Shown here one piece after another: positions 8,646 through 57,207 of a DNA stretch of 64,000 nucleotides (its first letter is position 1; each line of letters begins with the position of its first letter). Made by a program: the position numbers and the translations under genes. The notes beneath the pieces are model-generated. The model did no database searches. It had not been told where the DNA came from and saw only the letters and a list, made by a program, of their open reading frames with translations. Source of the stretch: Methanoculleus bourgensis MS2. Lineage in GTDB: Archaea > Halobacteriota > Methanomicrobia > Methanomicrobiales > Methanoculleaceae. The stretch spans positions 2,294,001 to 2,358,000 of the forward strand of contig NC_018227.2 in the NCBI RefSeq assembly GCF_000304355.2, in the 5' to 3' direction.

Positions 8646-8976
8646 ATAGTGCATCGTGTCACGTTATTCTGAAGATTTTGATGCGTGAGATGCAACGACG
8701 ATGACCTCACGCGAAGCCGCGAAGAGCGCGAAGTTCGGTATAATCCCCTGAAACGCCTCATCAAGTCTTCGCGTGAGGCTGTATCGTTATCCCCATCCAC
8801 CAACTCACGCGAAGCCGCGAAGATTGGTCTTGGGTACCTGCAACGCCCCTTCGCGGCCTTCGCGTCTTCGCGTGAGGCAGTGCGGTCATAGAGAGTACCA
8901 GGCTCACGCGGAAGCACGCGGGAGGTCGCGAAGAGGGACGGAAGATCTCTAAATTTAAGATGACAACAAGCACTAG
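8646..8976. repeat. MITE-like element, type A (331 bp)
   Basis: Non-coding element with inverted ends: the left end reads ATAGTGCATCGTGTCACGTT and the right end, complemented, CTAGTGCTTGTTGTCATCTT. The interior holds pairs of inverted CTCACGCGAAG / CTTCGCGTGAG blocks. A near-identical copy in the opposite orientation lies at 37045-37380, and a shorter relative at 54339-54571. No transposase is encoded. The rest of the 8452-9118 gap shows nothing else that I can name. Confidence 0.75.
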
Positions 8977-12226: not shown

Positions 12227-12890
12227 TCCTGAATCTCCCTCACACTCTATTTTTGCAAAAAAACGTTCATGAGGCTCCGTTCTTCGGGCCGCATGGTTTT
12301 TCCCGGGAACGCCCGGGCACTGCCGCAGGCCGGGCGGAGTAGAGACTACAAGGAGGGACCTACGAGTTCCGCCCTGTGCGGGGAAGGGGCAAGCCCCCTC
12401 CCCGGTCCCCCCCGGGGCGATGCCCACCACGGTCCACTGTACGGGTGAGGTGGGGAACAGTCCTGATCCGGTACAGGGGTTCACCAGAACTTGAACCTCG
12501 CCGGTATCAACGGGAATTCATTACACCAATCTGGTAAGTTAACGCCTATGGGGTCTCCCCTCCCCGCACAAGCCGGACCCGGGGCACAAACAGAGCCATG
12601 ATCCCCCACTCGCCAAACTGCGGCGGTTTTCATGGGAAATTTAGATGAAATGGCTCACTACTGGGCCATTGCATCTAATATTGTCCATGCGATACCGCCT
12701 CACGCGAAGTCCGTATATCTCCTCCCAACTGGGACCCTTCGCGCTCTTCGCGTGCGGTGGCGATCGCTCCCACACACCCCCAAGGTAAGGTGAAATGGCT
12801 CACTACCCATGCGCGGCGGTCTGTCTTTGCACCCAAAAACCCTGATGACAGATCAGGGAAAGAAAAGTGGTTTTTGTGTACGCCTGAGGA
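12227..12890. repeat. Repeat-filled intergenic region with a type B module
   Basis: No gene. 12380-12450 is a reversed copy of the GC-rich repeat (CCCACCACGGTCCACTGTAC). 12600-12657 is the right end of a type C module (GCGGTTTTCATGGGAAAT). 12658-12806 is a type B module with decayed CTAC borders, ends CTACTGGGCCATTGCATCTA and, complemented, GTAGTGAGCCATTTCACCTT, and CACGCGAAG / CTTCGCG arms inside. Confidence 0.6.
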
Positions 12891-22158: not shown

Positions 22159-22336
22159 CTACTGGACCATTTCACCTTATCGTGTGGGTCCTGGTGCAGA
22201 TCGCCACCTCACGCGAAGGCGCGAAGAGCGCGAAGGGAAGGTGCAGGCGATGGTAATCTCACAGACCTCGCGAGCTTCCGCACTCTTCGCGTGAGGCGGT
22301 ATCGCATAGGCAATATTAGATGAAATGGTCCACTAC
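22159..22336. repeat. Type B module ending directly before a gene
   Basis: Borders are CTAC (decayed CTAG). Left end CTACTGGACCATTTCACCTT and right end complemented GTAGTGGACCATTTCATCTA; arms of CACGCGAAG / CTTCGCGTGAG lie inside. A truncated relative (about 22105-22162) abuts on its left and shares the border. The right end carries AATATTA, 25 bases before the ATG of the next gene. Confidence 0.7.
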
Positions 22337-37044: not shown

Positions 37045-37380
37045 CTAGTGCTCTTTGTCATCTTAAATTTAGAGATCTTCCGTCCCTCTTCGCGACCTCC
37101 CGCGTGCTTCCGCGTGAGACGTTGGTACTCTCTATGACCGCACTGCCTCACGCGAAGACGCGAAGGCCGCGAAGGGGCGTTGCAGGTACCCAAGACCAAT
37201 CTTCGCGGCTTCGCGTGAGTTGGTGGATGGGGATAACGATACAGCCTCACGCGAAGACTTGATGAGGCGTTTCAGGGGATTATACCGAACTTCGCGCTCT
37301 TCGCGACTTCGCGTGAGACCGGAGGGACCCATCCCGGCATGCGACAAAAATTTCTAAAATAAGGTGACACGATGCACTAG
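37045..37380. repeat. MITE-like element, type A, inverted copy
   Basis: CTAG borders at both ends, with left end CTAGTGCTCTTTGTCATCTT and right end, complemented, CTAGTGCATCGTGTCACCTT. The interior matches the element at 8646-8976 over most of its length in opposite orientation. Confidence 0.75.
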
Positions 37381-39382: not shown

Positions 39383-39670
39383 CTAGTAGGCCATTTCATC
39401 TTATTTTGTGGATTCTGGTGCGAATCACCGGCCTCTCGTGGAAAGCCGCGCGGGAGCATTCATGGGGCAGAGCAAGAGGCTGTACGTATGAAAACAACCT
39501 ATTTCCCGGGCTTCCCGGACAGTGGACCGTGGTGGGAATCACCCCGGGGGAGGGGGCGAGCCCCCTCCCCCCACAACCTAGATCTGGGGCACGATGGAAC
39601 AGAGCAGGGGAGCCCCTGGTCGCCACCCGGGGAGGTCTTCGTGGAGCATTTAGGTGAGACGACCCACTAG
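39383..39670. repeat. Type C repeat module
   Basis: CTAG-bounded, 288 bp. Left end CTAGTAGGCCATTTCATCTT, right end complemented CTAGTGGGTCGTCTCACCTA. The interior contains CATTCATGGGGCAGAGC and GGACCGTGGTGGGAATCACC. Relatives lie at 46000-46348 and 59211-59487. Confidence 0.7.
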
Positions 39671-39845
39671 TGGAGCATTTCATCTAATATTGTCCATGCA
39701 ATACCATCTCACGCGAAGGGCGCGAAGCCGCGAAGTTCGGTTGCTGGGCGGCAGAGTCCCCTTCGCGTTCTTCGCGTCTTCGCGTGAGGTGGCGATCGCT
39801 CGCCCCGCATCAGGACCCGCAACATAAGGTGAAACGGTCCACTAG
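39667..39845. repeat. Type B repeat module
   Basis: CTAG-bounded, 179 bp, sharing its left CTAG with the type C module. Ends CTAGTGGAGCATTTCATCTA and, complemented, CTAGTGGACCGTTTCACCTT. Inside are CTCACGCGAAGG and CTTCGCGTGAGG arms. A copy nearly identical apart from a short deletion lies at 54810-54970. From 39846 to 40050 I see no gene. Confidence 0.75.
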
Positions 39846-43518: not shown

Positions 43519-43523
43519 GAGGG

Positions 43524-43696
43524 CAGTGGATCATTGCATCTAATATTTCCACGCGATTGTTGCGTCACGCGAAGCCGCGAAGAGCGCGAAGGGGACGATA
43601 CCATCCAGCAACCGAACTTCGCGTCCTCCCGCGTGCTTCCGTGTGAGGTTGCGATCTGTACCAGGACCCGCAAGATAAGGTGAAATGCTCCAGTAG
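43524..43696. repeat. Type B repeat module (decayed borders)
   Basis: Left end CAGTGGATCATTGCATCTAA and right end complemented CTACTGGAGCATTTCACCTT, with CACGCGAAGCCGCGAAG arms between. It lies six bases after the thioesterase stop codon. Confidence 0.65.
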
Positions 43697-45999: not shown

Positions 46000-46348
46000 C
46001 TAGTGCATCATTTCACCTTAACTAGCGGGTGCGTGGGAGTGATCGCCAGTCTCTCGCGGAAAGTTGTGCGGGAGAATTCATGGGGCAGAGCAAGAGGGAG
46101 TACGCATGAAAGCGACCTATTCCCCCGGGAGATCCCGGGGAAGAACCAGTTTCTAGCCGGTTCTCCCTGGCCGATTCTTCCCGGTCTTTCGGGAAACCGG
46201 CGTCAGCACCACCCCCTGGCGCGGCGTTCCACCGGATGTCGCCATGACTGCTCTCGCCCCCGGGAGGGGGTGGGGGAACGGAGGGGAGCGCTCTGTGGGG
46301 GATAAGACGAAGGCCAGATATGGTCTGTTATTTTGGAATCGATGCACT
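46000..46348. repeat. Type C/D composite repeat
   Basis: CTAG borders at 46000-46003 and 46345-46348. The left half matches the type C module (CTCTCGCGGAAAG, CATGGGGCAGAGC). The right half matches the type D module of 54568-54813 (AAGGCCAGATATGGTCTG, then GGAATCGATGCACTAG). 46349-46492 shows no gene. Confidence 0.6.
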
Positions 46349-46492
46349 AGGGCGATTGCCCACCACGGCCCCCTGTCCGGGGAAAACCGGATCCGGGTCT
46401 ACTCTTGCACCCGGCACCCAGTTGTTCGCCAGTTCAACCTCTCGCCACGCTGCATGGTTTTTCCGGGAGGGCCGGGACCAACCGCTCCCGCC

Positions 46493-52754: not shown

Positions 52755-52829
52755 CACCTGGTGGATGCCGCCTCCATCCTCTTTTTCTCAAGAGAAACTG
52801 TATTATCGGATTATCGCCGACCTCTATAT

Positions 52830-54065
52830 ATGGAGTCCTGCCGGGAGATCGAACTAGAGGGGCATATCATCGATTCAGGCATTATGACCCTGGTGTTCGA
52901 CAAGATCATGGATATGGGAGGAGAATTCGAGATCCTCACGTTCAATGTCGGGAAGCTGAAGACTGATACGAGTTACGCACGCCTGCGCGTCTCTGCGCCT
53001 GACGACCAGCAACTCGATGCTATCCTCTCCGAACTGCACCGGCTCGGAGCGCGCACCCCCGAGATCAGCGACGTCACCCTTGTACCGGCAGAGGGCGACC
53101 GGATCCTTCCAAAGGGGTTCTACTCGACCACCAACCACCCGACCTTCGTGAAATACCTGGACGAGTGGCTGCCTGTCGAGCAGATCGAGATGGACTGCCA
53201 CATCGTGGTCGATGAAGAGAATACGCGGGCGGTCTGCAAACCGATCTCAAAGATCAAGGCCGGCGACGCCGTTGTCGTAAGCGAGGCCGGGGTGCGTGTG
53301 ATCTACCCGGAGCGGCCGAGGAAGGTCAGCACGTTTGAGTTCATGCACGGGACCGTCTCATCTGAGCGGCCGAGCGAGGCGATCATCGCAAGGATCGCCC
53401 GCGAGATCCTGAAGCTGAAGCAGGAGGGGGAGAAGATTGCGCTCGTCGGCGGCCCGGCAATCGTCCACACCGGGGCGGCAGGAGCCCTTGCAAAGATGAT
53501 ACGTGAAGGCTACATCGACGTGCTCTTTGCGGGGAACGCGCTTGCCACTCATGATATCGAGTCCAACCTCTTTGGCACGTCTCTTGGGATGGACGTCAGG
53601 ACGGGCACGCTTGTCACCGGCGGGCATAAGCACCATATCTATGCCATCAGCGAGATCATGCGGGCCGGATCCATCAGGAATGCGGTCGAGCAGGGGGTTG
53701 TCACCGGCGGGATCATGTACGAGTGCGTGAAAAAGGGTATCCCGTTTGTGCTTGCCGGTTCCATCCGGGACGACGGACCGCTCCCCGACACGATCACGGA
53801 TGTCGTAGAGGCGCAGGACGCCATGCGCCGCCATATCCAGGACCTCGGGATGGTGGTGATGGTCGGGACGCTCCTCCACTCCATCGCCGTCGGAAACTGT
53901 CTCCCCTCATACGTCAAGACCGTCTGCGTCGATATTAACCCCGCATCGGTGACGAAACTGATGGACCGGGGCACGACACAGGCGATCGGCGTCGTGAGTG
54001 ATGCAGGGACGTTCCTCCCGCTGCTCGCAAAGCAGCTGGAGGAGCAGAAGAAAAAGACCTGCTAG
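52830..54065 (+). CDS. Archaeal ornithine cyclodeaminase (TIGR00300 / LOR-SDH-like family)
   Basis: About 411 residues. The N-terminal LOR/SDH-type domain begins REIELEGHIIDSGIM and includes PKGFYSTTNHPT. The C-terminal Rossmann-like domain has KIALVGGPAIVHTGAAGALA, GNALATHDIESNLFGTSLG, GHKHHIYAISEIMRAGSI and CVDINPASVTKLMDRG. Members in methanococci convert ornithine to proline. I use the ATG at 52830; the frame is open to 52761. There is no clear ribosome site. The TAG stop coincides with the CTAG border of a repeat module (54062-54065). Confidence 0.85.
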   Translation: MESCREIELEGHIIDSGIMTLVFDKIMDMGGEFEILTFNVGKLKTDTSYARLRVSAPDDQQLDAILSELHRLGARTPEISDVTLVPAEGDRILPKGFYSTTNHPTFVKYLDEWLPVEQIEMDCHIVVDEENTRAVCKPISKIKAGDAVVVSEAGVRVIYPERPRKVSTFEFMHGTVSSERPSEAIIARIAREILKLKQEGEKIALVGGPAIVHTGAAGALAKMIREGYIDVLFAGNALATHDIESNLFGTSLGMDVRTGTLVTGGHKHHIYAISEIMRAGSIRNAVEQGVVTGGIMYECVKKGIPFVLAGSIRDDGPLPDTITDVVEAQDAMRRHIQDLGMVVMVGTLLHSIAVGNCLPSYVKTVCVDINPASVTKLMDRGTTQAIGVVSDAGTFLPLLAKQLEEQKKKTC

Positions 54066-54342
54066 TGGAGTATCTCATCTAATGTTTCACATGGCATCCC
54101 ATCAACTCACGCGAAGAGCGCGAAGACGCGAAGTCCATGGGATTGTTACGTCCTCCTTCGCGATCTTCGCGGCTTCGCGTGAGGTTTCGGTATAGAGAGG
54201 TTCGTCCACTACAGTCTCACGCGAAGAGCGCGAAGCCTTGATGCCCGTGAGATTACTATCGCCTGCACCTTCCCTTCGCGCCCTCCCGCGTGAGGTGGCG
54301 ATCTGCACAGGACCCGCAAGATAAGGTGAAATGCTCCACTAG
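54062..54342. repeat. Type B repeat module (281 bp), left member of a CTAG chain
   Basis: Left border CTAG includes the stop codon of the upstream gene. Ends CTAGTGGAGTATCTCATCTA and, complemented, CTAGTGGAGCATTTCACCTT, with several CACGCGAAGAGCGCGAAG arms inside. Confidence 0.75.
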
Positions 54343-54571
54343 TGCATCGTGTCATCTTATTTTAGAAATTTTTGTCGCGTGTTGGGACGGGCACTCCGGT
54401 CTCACGCGGGAGTGCGCGAAGGTTGGTATAATCCCCCTGCAACGCCCCTTCGCGCCCTCACGCGTGCTTCCGCGTGAGGGGTAATCGAGAGTACCGATGT
54501 CTCACGCGAAGCCGCGAAGGTCGCGAAGAGGGACGGGAGATCTCTCAATGTAAGATGACAACAAGCACTAG
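54339..54571. repeat. Type A repeat module (233 bp), shares CTAG borders
   Basis: Ends CTAGTGCATCGTGTCATCTT and, complemented, CTAGTGCTTGTTGTCATCTT. Shorter than the two 330-bp type A copies through loss of an internal part. Confidence 0.75.
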
Positions 54572-54813
54572 TCATCGATTCTCAATTACCGGCACGCTCA
54601 ATGGAGGGGGGTGTCGATCTCGTTTCACGCTTTCCGAGGGTTTGCATCCCGGGAACGGCGTTCCACCGGATATACACCCGGGCACTGCCCCCGCCCGGGG
54701 GGCGAGGGAGGAGCGCCGAATGGGCGGGCGGGGTGGGGAGAGGGAGGGAAGCGCTCCGCGGGGGATGGGGCGAAGGCCAGATATGGTCTGCCAATTTGGA
54801 ATCGTTGCACTAG
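54568..54813. repeat. Type D repeat module (246 bp)
   Basis: Ends CTAGTCATCGATTCTCAATT and, complemented, CTAGTGCAACGATTCCAAAT. The interior is GC-rich with GGCCAGATATGGTCTG near the right end, also found at about 46311. Confidence 0.65.
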
Positions 54814-54970
54814 TGGAGCATTGCATCTAATATTGTCCATGCAATACCATCTCACGCGAAGGGCGCGAAGCCGCGAAGTTCGGTTGCTGGGCGGCATCGT
54901 CCCCTTCGCGTGCGGTGGCGATCGCTACTACGCATCAGGACCCGCAACATAAGGTGAAACGGTCCACTAG
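54810..54970. repeat. Type B repeat module (161 bp), right member of the chain
   Basis: Almost identical to 39667-39845 apart from a short internal deletion. Its right CTAG (54967-54970) includes the TAG stop codon of the convergent radical SAM gene. Confidence 0.75.
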
Positions 54971-55953
54971 CGCGTAAGCGGCATACAGAACGGTTCTTCC
55001 TGGTCGATTATAAACTCCCACTCTTCTTTGCACGCGCAATCTGTCTCTGCAAGCGCACGTAAGAGTCCGGTATCTCCGGTCAGCGAGTAGTCGCCGATCC
55101 CCTTCACGATCGAGCGATCGCAGTTACCGCAGTTGTGCGGCCCCCGGACCTGCCCGCCGCCGACGGGGTCGCAGAGGACATGCACCGGCGAACTGATCAA
55201 CACGTCAAGGACCGTCCAGAGGTACGGCGGGCGGTACGCGTGCTGCCTCCAGAGGCGCTCGACTTCGGTCCTGCCCTGGACGGTACAGAGGTTCATGGAG
55301 ATGCTGTCGGCGACAGAGGAGACGTCCTTGATGGAACGCACCATGTCGTCGCGCGCCTCGCGTTCGGTCAGGAACGGCGGTTTCATCAGGAGGTAGGCCT
55401 TCACGCCCGCGCCGGCGGCGTGTGCAACCTCCGCGGCGCGGAGAAAGTCGGCATACGAGAACCCTTTGTCGATGCATTTCTCCCTGATGAAATCGTTCGT
55501 GGTCTCAAGGCCCATAGCGACAGAGAGCGGTGTAGCCCAGGCGCCGGTGTCGATCTCCTCACCAAACTCCCGGAGCGCATCGGGATCGACGTACTCCGGC
55601 CTTGTCTCGGCGATCACCATCTTGCCCCGGAACGCCTCCGCGACGGCGCGCCGGGCAGCGGCGGGGACCTCGTCGGGGTCGAAGAAACTCCCTGACGTGA
55701 AGACCTTGAGCACCTGGTAATCCTCGTCGCGGAAGTTCTCTTTCACCCAGCGGACCTGGCGGACCAGCCGGTCGGTGAGGTCATCCCGCGGCATGTCGGG
55801 GTAGCGCTCGTGCCGGTAACCGCACATACGGCACCGGTTCCATGAACACCCGCCGCTCCTGAAGATAACCGTCAGCGTATCGAGAACCTGCCCGTCAATG
55901 CGGTCCTTCCCCCGCCAGGACGCCAGCGGCTTCTCAACTGATTTGGATAGCAT
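54967..55953 (-). CDS. Archaeosine biosynthesis radical SAM protein RaSEA
   Basis: Works with ArcS to turn preQ0-lysine on tRNA into archaeosine. 328 residues: LTVIFRSGGCSWNRCRMCGY carries the cluster cysteines, with KVFTSGSFFDPDEVP, VIAETRPEYVDPDAL, VAMGLETTNDFIREKCIDKG and AYLLMKPPFLTEREA in TIM-barrel order. C-terminal CDPVGGGQVRGPHNCGNCD adds further cysteines typical of the family. GAGGT lies three bases before the ATG. It is divergent from the surface-protein gene with a 28-base spacer. Confidence 0.93.
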   Translation of the reverse strand: MLSKSVEKPLASWRGKDRIDGQVLDTLTVIFRSGGCSWNRCRMCGYRHERYPDMPRDDLTDRLVRQVRWVKENFRDEDYQVLKVFTSGSFFDPDEVPAAARRAVAEAFRGKMVIAETRPEYVDPDALREFGEEIDTGAWATPLSVAMGLETTNDFIREKCIDKGFSYADFLRAAEVAHAAGAGVKAYLLMKPPFLTEREARDDMVRSIKDVSSVADSISMNLCTVQGRTEVERLWRQHAYRPPYLWTVLDVLISSPVHVLCDPVGGGQVRGPHNCGNCDRSIVKGIGDYSLTGDTGLLRALAETDCACKEEWEFIIDQEEPFCMPLTR

Positions 55954-55981
55954 TATACCTCATATTCGTCGATGTAATGGT

Positions 55982-57082
55982 ATGAAAAGGATCGCATGGC
56001 TGACACTCCTTGCTGCGATGCTGCTCGTCAGTGCCGCATCAGCCGCGTATGTCGAGATCAATGCTCCAAAGACAGTATATGCCGGCGACCCGCTCAAGGT
56101 CACCGGAACCACGATCGTGGGGGGGCTCACAAAGCCTTCGCTCAACCCCGGGTTCAGCACAGACGTCGTCTTATACTCCGTCAAGCACTCGAAGAGCGAA
56201 GTCGTCCGGAAGACCATCGTCGTCCAGGAGGATGGCTCGTTCTCAGCGACGTTTGATACCAGGGGTCTTGCTGCAGGGGATTACACGGTCGAGATCATCG
56301 ATCCCGAGCCGCCGAACACCTTTGGGGGCAGTTCAAAGACCCTGCAGTTCCTCAAACTGGTCGATCGGTCTGGAGATCTCAGGATCACTTCGCCGCTCAC
56401 CCAGGAATTAGACGGCAGCCTCGATATCTCTGGTGCAATCACCGATATCGGGGGCGCGGGCGTGCGGATCCAGGTCGAGTATGGCGGCACCACCGTCTAT
56501 GGGCCTGAATACATCAAGACCGATGCTGATGGGAGGTTCTCTGTGACCGTGCCCATATCAGATGCAGGCGCCTACAATGTCACCTTCTCTGACACGCGGA
56601 GTTACATCGATACCATCGAGTTTGCAGTATTAGGAGGCGCATCGCCCCCTACCGAGACGCAAGGAGCGACGGTCTCGGCCAGCGCACCCGCCACCCGGTC
56701 TGCTCCGGCGTACTTCGAGGTCGATACCGGGGTCGGCACGGTGACGCTCACAACCTCGTCCGGCGGGATTGACTGGGTGGTCGAGTACATCGACGAGGGC
56801 GGCAGCCTCCATAAGATCAATGACGCGGGTCTGCTTGATCCCGAGACCACGGAGTTCTCAGCACAGGGAGGCCGGGTCTACGTCAAGGTCTACCCGGTTG
56901 GCTACAACGACCGTGGAACGGTGCAACTCTCGGCCACAAATGCCGATGCGGTCAGGGTGAGCCAGAATGCGCCGGTGATCTTCGGTGATGCGACGCCCAC
57001 ACCCACAGAAACTGCTGCGCCGCTCCCTGCAGTGCTGGCACTCCTTGCACTACTCGTGGTCATCCTCAGCCGCCGGGGATGA
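55982..57082 (+). CDS. Secreted surface protein with archaeosortase-like C-terminal tail
   Basis: 366 residues. A signal peptide (KRIAWLTLLAAMLLVSAASA) precedes two beta-rich Ig-like units (YAGDPLKVTGTTIVGG; DGSLDISGAITDIGGAGVRI) and a third beta region (FEVDTGVGTVTLTTSSGGI). A Thr/Pro-rich linker (TPTPTETAAP) is followed by a hydrophobic helix and a final SRRG. The tripartite tail (short Pro motif, helix, basic end) fits processing by an archaeosortase such as the one at 13334; the classical PGF motif is not present, APLP standing in its place. ATTATAC about 28 bases before the ATG suggests a leaderless transcript. Confidence 0.8.
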   Translation: MKRIAWLTLLAAMLLVSAASAAYVEINAPKTVYAGDPLKVTGTTIVGGLTKPSLNPGFSTDVVLYSVKHSKSEVVRKTIVVQEDGSFSATFDTRGLAAGDYTVEIIDPEPPNTFGGSSKTLQFLKLVDRSGDLRITSPLTQELDGSLDISGAITDIGGAGVRIQVEYGGTTVYGPEYIKTDADGRFSVTVPISDAGAYNVTFSDTRSYIDTIEFAVLGGASPPTETQGATVSASAPATRSAPAYFEVDTGVGTVTLTTSSGGIDWVVEYIDEGGSLHKINDAGLLDPETTEFSAQGGRVYVKVYPVGYNDRGTVQLSATNADAVRVSQNAPVIFGDATPTPTETAAPLPAVLALLALLVVILSRRG

Positions 57083-57090
57083 GCAACCTT

Positions 57091-57097
57091 TTTTTCG
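57091..57097 (+). terminator. Poly-T terminator after the surface-protein gene
   Basis: Seven T in a row, nine bases past the stop codon at 57082 and 26 bases before the tRNA gene. Confidence 0.5.
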
Positions 57098-57122
57098 TCA
57101 GGCAACCAATGGGTAGAAGCGA

Positions 57123-57207
57123 GCCGGGATAGTCTAGTCCGGTAAGGCGGTGGCCTTGAAAGCCACTGGTGCCTGGCACCTCGGGAGTTCAAATCTCCCT
57201 CCCGGCG
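57123..57207 (+). tRNA. tRNA-Ser (anticodon UGA)
   Basis: Acceptor stem GCCGGGA pairs with TCCCGGC, discriminator G at 57207. The D arm AGTCTAGTCCGGTAAGGC, anticodon stem GTGGC/GCCAC with loop CTTGAAA (anticodon TGA), a long variable arm GGTGCCTGGCACC as in class II tRNAs, and T arm GGGAGTTCAAATCTCCC are all present. CCA is not encoded and there is no intron. Confidence 0.95.

Follow-up and report, generated by a model that had tools for sequence, protein, structure and literature searches.

Four CTAG-joined MITEs between the stop codons of two convergent genes in Methanoculleus bourgensis MS2

In a 64,000-nt stretch of the M. bourgensis MS2 genome (the window; the closed genome that carries it comprises 2,789,774 bp), the space between two convergent genes begins and ends exactly at their stop codons and is filled by modules joined through CTAG. 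What are these modules, how did they come to lie end to end, and how did both genes remain unbroken?

Anatomy of the chain and the empty site in relatives

Inspection of the sequence confirmed the layout given by a first-pass annotation: positions 54062-54970 consist of four non-coding modules, B (54062-54342), A (54339-54571), D (54568-54813) and B (54810-54970), and of nothing else. CTAG occurs at 54062, 54339, 54568, 54810 and 54967, and at no other position in 52855-57133. The features are as follows, with the strand given for the genes.

52761..54065, plus strand: upstream convergent gene (ORF), ArgZ-like / LOR-SDH protein of 434 aa (Pfam PF21570, PF04455, PF21571), TAG stop within the first CTAG
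54062..54065: outer CTAG on the left, a copy of the target-site duplication that carries the upstream gene's TAG stop; empty site in relatives
54066..54338: MITE 1, type B, 273 bp, ends TGGAGTATCTCATCTAA / TGGAGCATTTCACCTTA
54339..54342: CTAG common to MITE 1 and MITE 2
54343..54567: MITE 2, type A, 225 bp, with copies of 99-100% identity at genome positions 1837023 and 712786
54568..54571: CTAG common to MITE 2 and MITE 3
54572..54809: MITE 3, type D, 238 bp, ends TCATCGATTCTCAATTA (TG mutated) / TGCAACGATTCCAAATT
54810..54813: CTAG common to MITE 3 and MITE 4
54814..54966: MITE 4, type B, 153 bp, a shortened form of an abundant 171-bp variant
54967..54970: outer CTAG on the right, a further copy of the target-site duplication, whose CTA is the TAG stop of the downstream minus-strand gene; empty site in relatives
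54967..55953, minus strand: downstream convergent gene, radical SAM protein of 328 aa (PF04055)

Neighbouring modules have inverted TG...CA ends and one CTAG in common per junction, which can be written as CACTAGTG. In chain order the ends read TGGAG.../...CTCCA, TGCATCGTGTCATCTTA/...TAAGATGACAACAAGCA, TCATCGATTC/...GGAATCGTTGCA and TGGAGC/...GGTCCA. The earlier description of inverted ends and a single CTAG per neighbour pair needed one correction: module D reads CTAGTC at its left end, whereas its other copies show CTAGTG or CTAGTA there, so the TG of this end is mutated. The ORFs likewise bear out that the first CTAG holds the TAG stop of one gene and the last CTAG that of the other.

Of 35 genus genomes, 32 yielded an orthologue of the upstream gene, and 29 loci besides the present one were readable across the junction. 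In 19 of these 29, a single CTAG contains the overlapping TAG stops of both convergent genes, which is the empty site that the first-pass annotation had proposed to look for; its refuting condition, module-free orthologues lacking CTAG at the junction, was thereby not borne out. Other junctions among the 29 are TTAG (four), TTAA (two), CTAA (one) and a non-TA sequence (one), and G021 has a different short spacer; the genes abut without a spacer in at least 25 of the 29. Given the empty single CTAG in relatives, the stops at the two outer borders of the chain are two copies of one ancestral CTAG. The earlier picture of two TAG stops, one at each outer border, thus gives way to a single palindromic CTAG in which both stops overlapped and inside which the chain grew.

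In one congener, G016 (locus L103), the corresponding CTAG is occupied by a separate element of ~420 bp, whose left end is of type B and whose right end is of type D; CTAG stands at each of its borders. This insertion is independent of the chain in the window, and the stop/stop CTAG has accordingly been occupied independently in two species. The mixed ends suggest a single enzyme that may work on B and D ends alike, or a fusion of two elements.

A MITE family with a 4-bp target-site duplication

Dozens of copies of each of modules A, B and D, some complete and some partial, are spread over unrelated loci of the genome, in both orientations and often as singles. The pattern goes well past anything that chance would produce. 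The motif of the B/A ends was found at 449 sites in the whole genome when up to two mismatches were allowed, compared with 24 for a reversed control. The inverted repeats at the ends have the consensus TGSANCRTNTCAnnTnA for B/A, TaCAnCGATTC for D and TGCCRAGTCAA for a further type, E. Our catalogue comprises 111 elements flanked by a target-site duplication, all non-coding and 141-808 bp in length; the long D variants (805-816 bp) were searched for a transposase ORF and contain neither this nor any other long ORF. Being short, non-coding and multicopy, with facing terminal inverted repeats and a duplication of exactly 4 bp, the modules are MITEs in structure. The best module A copies are 99-100% identical over 233 bp, and B-type ends number 181 in this genome vs 0-4 in each of 34 congeners; together these values point to a recent, lineage-specific burst of the family.

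We picked 86 facing end pairs without any duplication criterion. The 4-bp flanks are identical in 58 of them, and the 28 pairs without identical flanks would reflect decay, nesting or mis-paired ends. Among the 41 pairs other than CTAG/CTAG, 13 match in direct orientation (CTAC, GTAG, TTAG, CTAT; ~0.2 expected by chance), no pair matches when inverted, and the identity never reaches 5 or 6 bp. Specific cases are GTAG/GTAG at locus L034, CTAC/CTAC at L035 and L049, and TTAG/TTAG at L036. Because non-CTAG flanks match directly, never inverted and never beyond 4 bp, the element itself runs from TG to CA, and the adjoining four bases belong to a target-site duplication rather than to element sequence. 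At locus L068, consecutive elements have the non-palindromic CTAC in common, so the shared unit is the duplication, whatever its sequence. The duplications of the 111 catalogued elements are CTAG in 77, CTAC/GTAG in 13, other sequences in three and imperfect in 18. At 38 target sites no base preference was detected outside the 4 bp, and no consensus extends beyond CTAG. The first-pass proposal of elements that target CTAG and keep it as a junction therefore stands in that CTAG is targeted and retained at both borders, but this CTAG is a 4-bp target-site duplication that is sometimes CTAC/GTAG, TTAG or CTAT instead.

The preferred target is rare. In an unbiased 464-kb sample of genome stretches, analysed alongside individual loci, we counted 159 CTAGs, whereas a Markov model predicts 447 and base composition 1670. 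About one-third of the CTAGs present in this sample adjoin TG/CA-like element ends.

Are stop codons sought as such? With likely genes called by a codon-usage score, which is crude, and with some elements undetected, the outer duplication contains the TAG stop of a likely gene at 7 of ~65 insertion sites (8/66 in a listing that enters the window chain twice), compared with 15 of 125 CTAGs not attached to elements. Enrichment at stop codons was therefore rejected: the count of borders against TAG stops suggested by the first-pass annotation gave no excess, and the association is what CTAG preference alone gives. A likely coding frame is split by 1 of 66 insertions, whereas 36 of the 125 element-free CTAGs lie inside genes, so the surviving insertions have been filtered for harmlessness. 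Of the earlier idea of harmless insertion into TAG stops, the survival of both stops holds, but the stops themselves are not specially targeted.

Several further observations concern the wider family. Elements of the same MITE family lie elsewhere in the window, at 37045-37380, 39383-39845 (a two-element chain), 46000-46350, 22159-22336, 12658-12806, 8646-8976 and 43523-43696; those at 22159-22336 and 12658-12806 have CTAC duplications. Some elements are composites, with an A-like core inside E or with mixed B/D ends. GC-rich dispersed repeats that match the middle of module D (window 54648-54738, approximately positions 81-171 of 246 bp) occur, independently of the D ends, in most of the 35 genomes of the genus; this middle part looks like a distinct repeat embedded in the element. 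Modules A and B contain CACGCGAAGNNCGCGAAG repeats, e.g. at 54107-54135, 54208-54230 and 54850-54880, which are also scattered elsewhere in the genome and are REP-like units.

Growth of the chain and alternative readings

We consider it very probable that successive insertions into a single palindromic stop/stop CTAG built the chain, each of them regenerating CTAG. The modules would be non-autonomous DNA transposons that depend on a DDE-type transposase acting in trans, an enzyme whose staggered cuts are 4 bp apart and fall preferably at CTAG. In the ancestor, the overlap of the convergent genes would have been a single palindromic CTAG, from which each gene took its TAG stop. The first MITE to arrive would have entered this CTAG, and repair of the 4-bp gaps would have duplicated it to give gene1-CTAG-MITE-CTAG-gene2, leaving each gene with a TAG stop of its own. 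Each later MITE would then have entered one of the CTAG copies and added another, up to CTAG-B-CTAG-A-CTAG-D-CTAG-B-CTAG. The order of insertion, the identity of the transposase and its chemistry are what we infer here, and the chains would persist owing to the neutrality of their sites. The end pairs without identical flanks, the excess of shared junctions described below and the lack of matching autonomous elements at the loci examined weigh against this reading.

Chains recur throughout the genome, as expected if elements insert into each other's borders, a claim of the first-pass annotation that our catalogue supports. It lists 28 chains, 15 of two elements, 10 of three, two of four and one of five; the last (E, B, B, B, B; locus L025, genome ~1056898-1059964) has single CTAG joints throughout. 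Nine shared junctions were seen in the unbiased 464-kb sample. Under random insertion among CTAGs, the expected number lies between 3.2, with every site open, and 5.2, with 60 sites closed, corresponding to p values of 0.0007-0.03. The excess is moderate. It indicates that something beyond random choice among CTAGs acts, perhaps selection, and selection for neutral sites could produce it; a longer target motif does not account for it.

Four other explanations were weighed against successive insertion. Retention of the modules for a function between convergent genes, e.g. as strong RNA hairpins or transcription terminators, would accord with the folding of the 909-nt stretch, which is far better than that of its shuffles (z -9.7); yet palindromic MITEs should fold back in any case, copies of these elements lie at many sites unrelated to this one, and the congeneric orthologues that lack a spacer show that the gene pair usually does without one. 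Rfam gave no match, and we regard a retained function as very unlikely. Hardly more credible, and to us slightly less so, is an assembly of the chain by recombination between dispersed copies, with CTAG and the element ends as homology. The number of elements and the composites described above would favour it, but the outer borders match the relatives' empty CTAG exactly, every inner border is a single CTAG, and the elements found in chains are mostly full-length with intact ends.

The remaining two explanations concern the enzyme, and the duplications bear on both. A transposase of the IS630/Tc1 type, duplicating only a 2-bp TA inside CTAG, would explain the TA core present at nearly all sites, and IS630 itself prefers CTAG. 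In pairs such as CTAC/CTAC and GTAG/GTAG, however, the bases flanking TA also match directly, so that four bases rather than two are duplicated; the 13 non-CTAG pairs with 4-bp identity contradict this reading, and its probability seems to us exceedingly small. We give least credence of all to a cassette-like array, in which a site-specific recombinase would integrate and excise modules at CTAG much as attC cassettes are handled by integrons. One short junction common to the modules and the presence of arrays are what such a system would produce; against it, the module ends are inverted repeats, the directly repeated 4-bp flank varies from site to site, and the modules occur in both orientations and frequently as singles at dozens of unrelated sites. 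Successive insertion with target-site duplication accordingly remains our reading of the chain.

Known relatives and the mobilising enzyme

The first-pass annotation knew of no described family with such behaviour, a statement that fails in the face of two published systems. MITEPsy1 of Pseudomonas syringae pv. phaseolicola, related to ISPsy2, inserted into a trap plasmid at CTAG or YTAA with duplication of 4 bp (PMC3189936). Like the modules, it is a non-coding element (100 bp) with inverted ends and a 4-bp CTAG duplication; unlike them, it has GGAAGG/GTATCC rather than TG...CA ends and a known likely parent IS, and the consulted part of that report presents no chains with a shared duplication (PMC3189936). 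TnRErm46 of Rhodococcus equi, with ISRe46 of the IS481 family, inserts at CTAG and preserves the TAG stops of target genes (PMC6794481). Its ends start with TG (TGTTGCGGGTCATGACG) and have several positions in common with type A ends (TGCATCGTGTCATC), but it is a 6.9-kb autonomous transposon with cargo, and its direct repeat is the 6-bp NCTAGN, in contrast to exactly 4 bp beside TG...CA here (PMC6794481).

Other families resemble the modules in part. The earlier remark that IS5-type enzymes prefer CTAG-like targets agrees with the IS5 group, whose members duplicate 4 bp at CTAG/CTAA-like sites (E. coli IS5, PMC11677980; ISMysh01, PMC9241763); unlike the modules, they encode a transposase, and the module ends were absent from the PF01609 loci examined in the genome and genus. 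The IS701 family has a conserved 4-bp target duplication, but its end consensus (---YACT-Y--YR) does not fit TGSANCRTNTCA (PMC2266710). The MITEs and short mobile repeats of Haloquadratum walsbyi are likewise archaeal, high-copy and non-coding, insert frequently into one another and include MITEs without a functional transposase copy in the genome; they differ in belonging to other families with other targets, and the consulted part of that work describes no shared-CTAG chains (PMC3119063). A literature search for MITEs in Methanoculleus returned nothing relevant.

MITEs with a CTAG duplication, and a transposon that leaves TAG stops intact on insertion at CTAG, have thus been published before. 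New, to our knowledge, are the family itself, its shared-duplication chains of up to five elements and the independent occupation of one stop/stop CTAG in two species. Mechanistically, the chain is a neat but ordinary case of site-preferring transposition. It offers a clean, testable picture in which preference for a 4-bp palindrome, its duplication and the avoidance of CTAG in genes let chains pile up while genes stay unbroken, a shared stop/stop CTAG being a natural safe harbour. Annotators should bear in mind that odd modular spacers lying exactly between stop codons can be stacked MITEs.

That several hundred ends have been amplified in a single methanogen also points to a missing transposase. 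No autonomous element with module ends was found at the PF01609, PF13546, PF00665 and NF033577 loci examined. For an IS5-family parent, we inspected the PF01609 loci of this genome and the best 29 of the genus, none of which has module ends and a 4-bp duplication. The single PF13546 protein of this genome lies within an element having other ends (GAGTTACGCA), PF00665 (rve) has no match in this genome and other ends at the sampled genus loci, and at the sampled IS481-like (NF033577) loci of the order a CTAG duplication is lacking and the ends differ from those of the modules, e.g. TGTAGTATCCCG. No match emerged among viral contigs, plasmids or phages, and a search of genome contigs with the end pattern returned four records only, among which a Lachnospiraceae bin had no second end.

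Two features of the modules occur in the IS481 family, namely TG...CA ends and, in some members, a CTAG target. Because TG...CA ends at CTAG resemble ISRe46, an IS481-like enzyme is our leading guess at the parent, though a tentative one that may well prove wrong; an IS5-like enzyme or one of another DDE family is possible. More speculative, and in our judgement rather unlikely, is that an undescribed trans-acting transposase, since lost from the genome and leaving its several hundred ends behind, recognised four fairly dissimilar end types (A, B, D and E) and was self-nucleating, in that each insertion at a rare, genome-depleted CTAG would add a CTAG in neutral DNA and chains would outgrow uniform CTAG targeting.

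In the course of this search we noted an IS at L093 (897-2618) with an inverted copy in L094. The two 1,722-bp copies are 100% identical, have CC... ends and encode a 547-aa PF01609 transposase; this IS has been recently active and is unrelated to the MITE ends.
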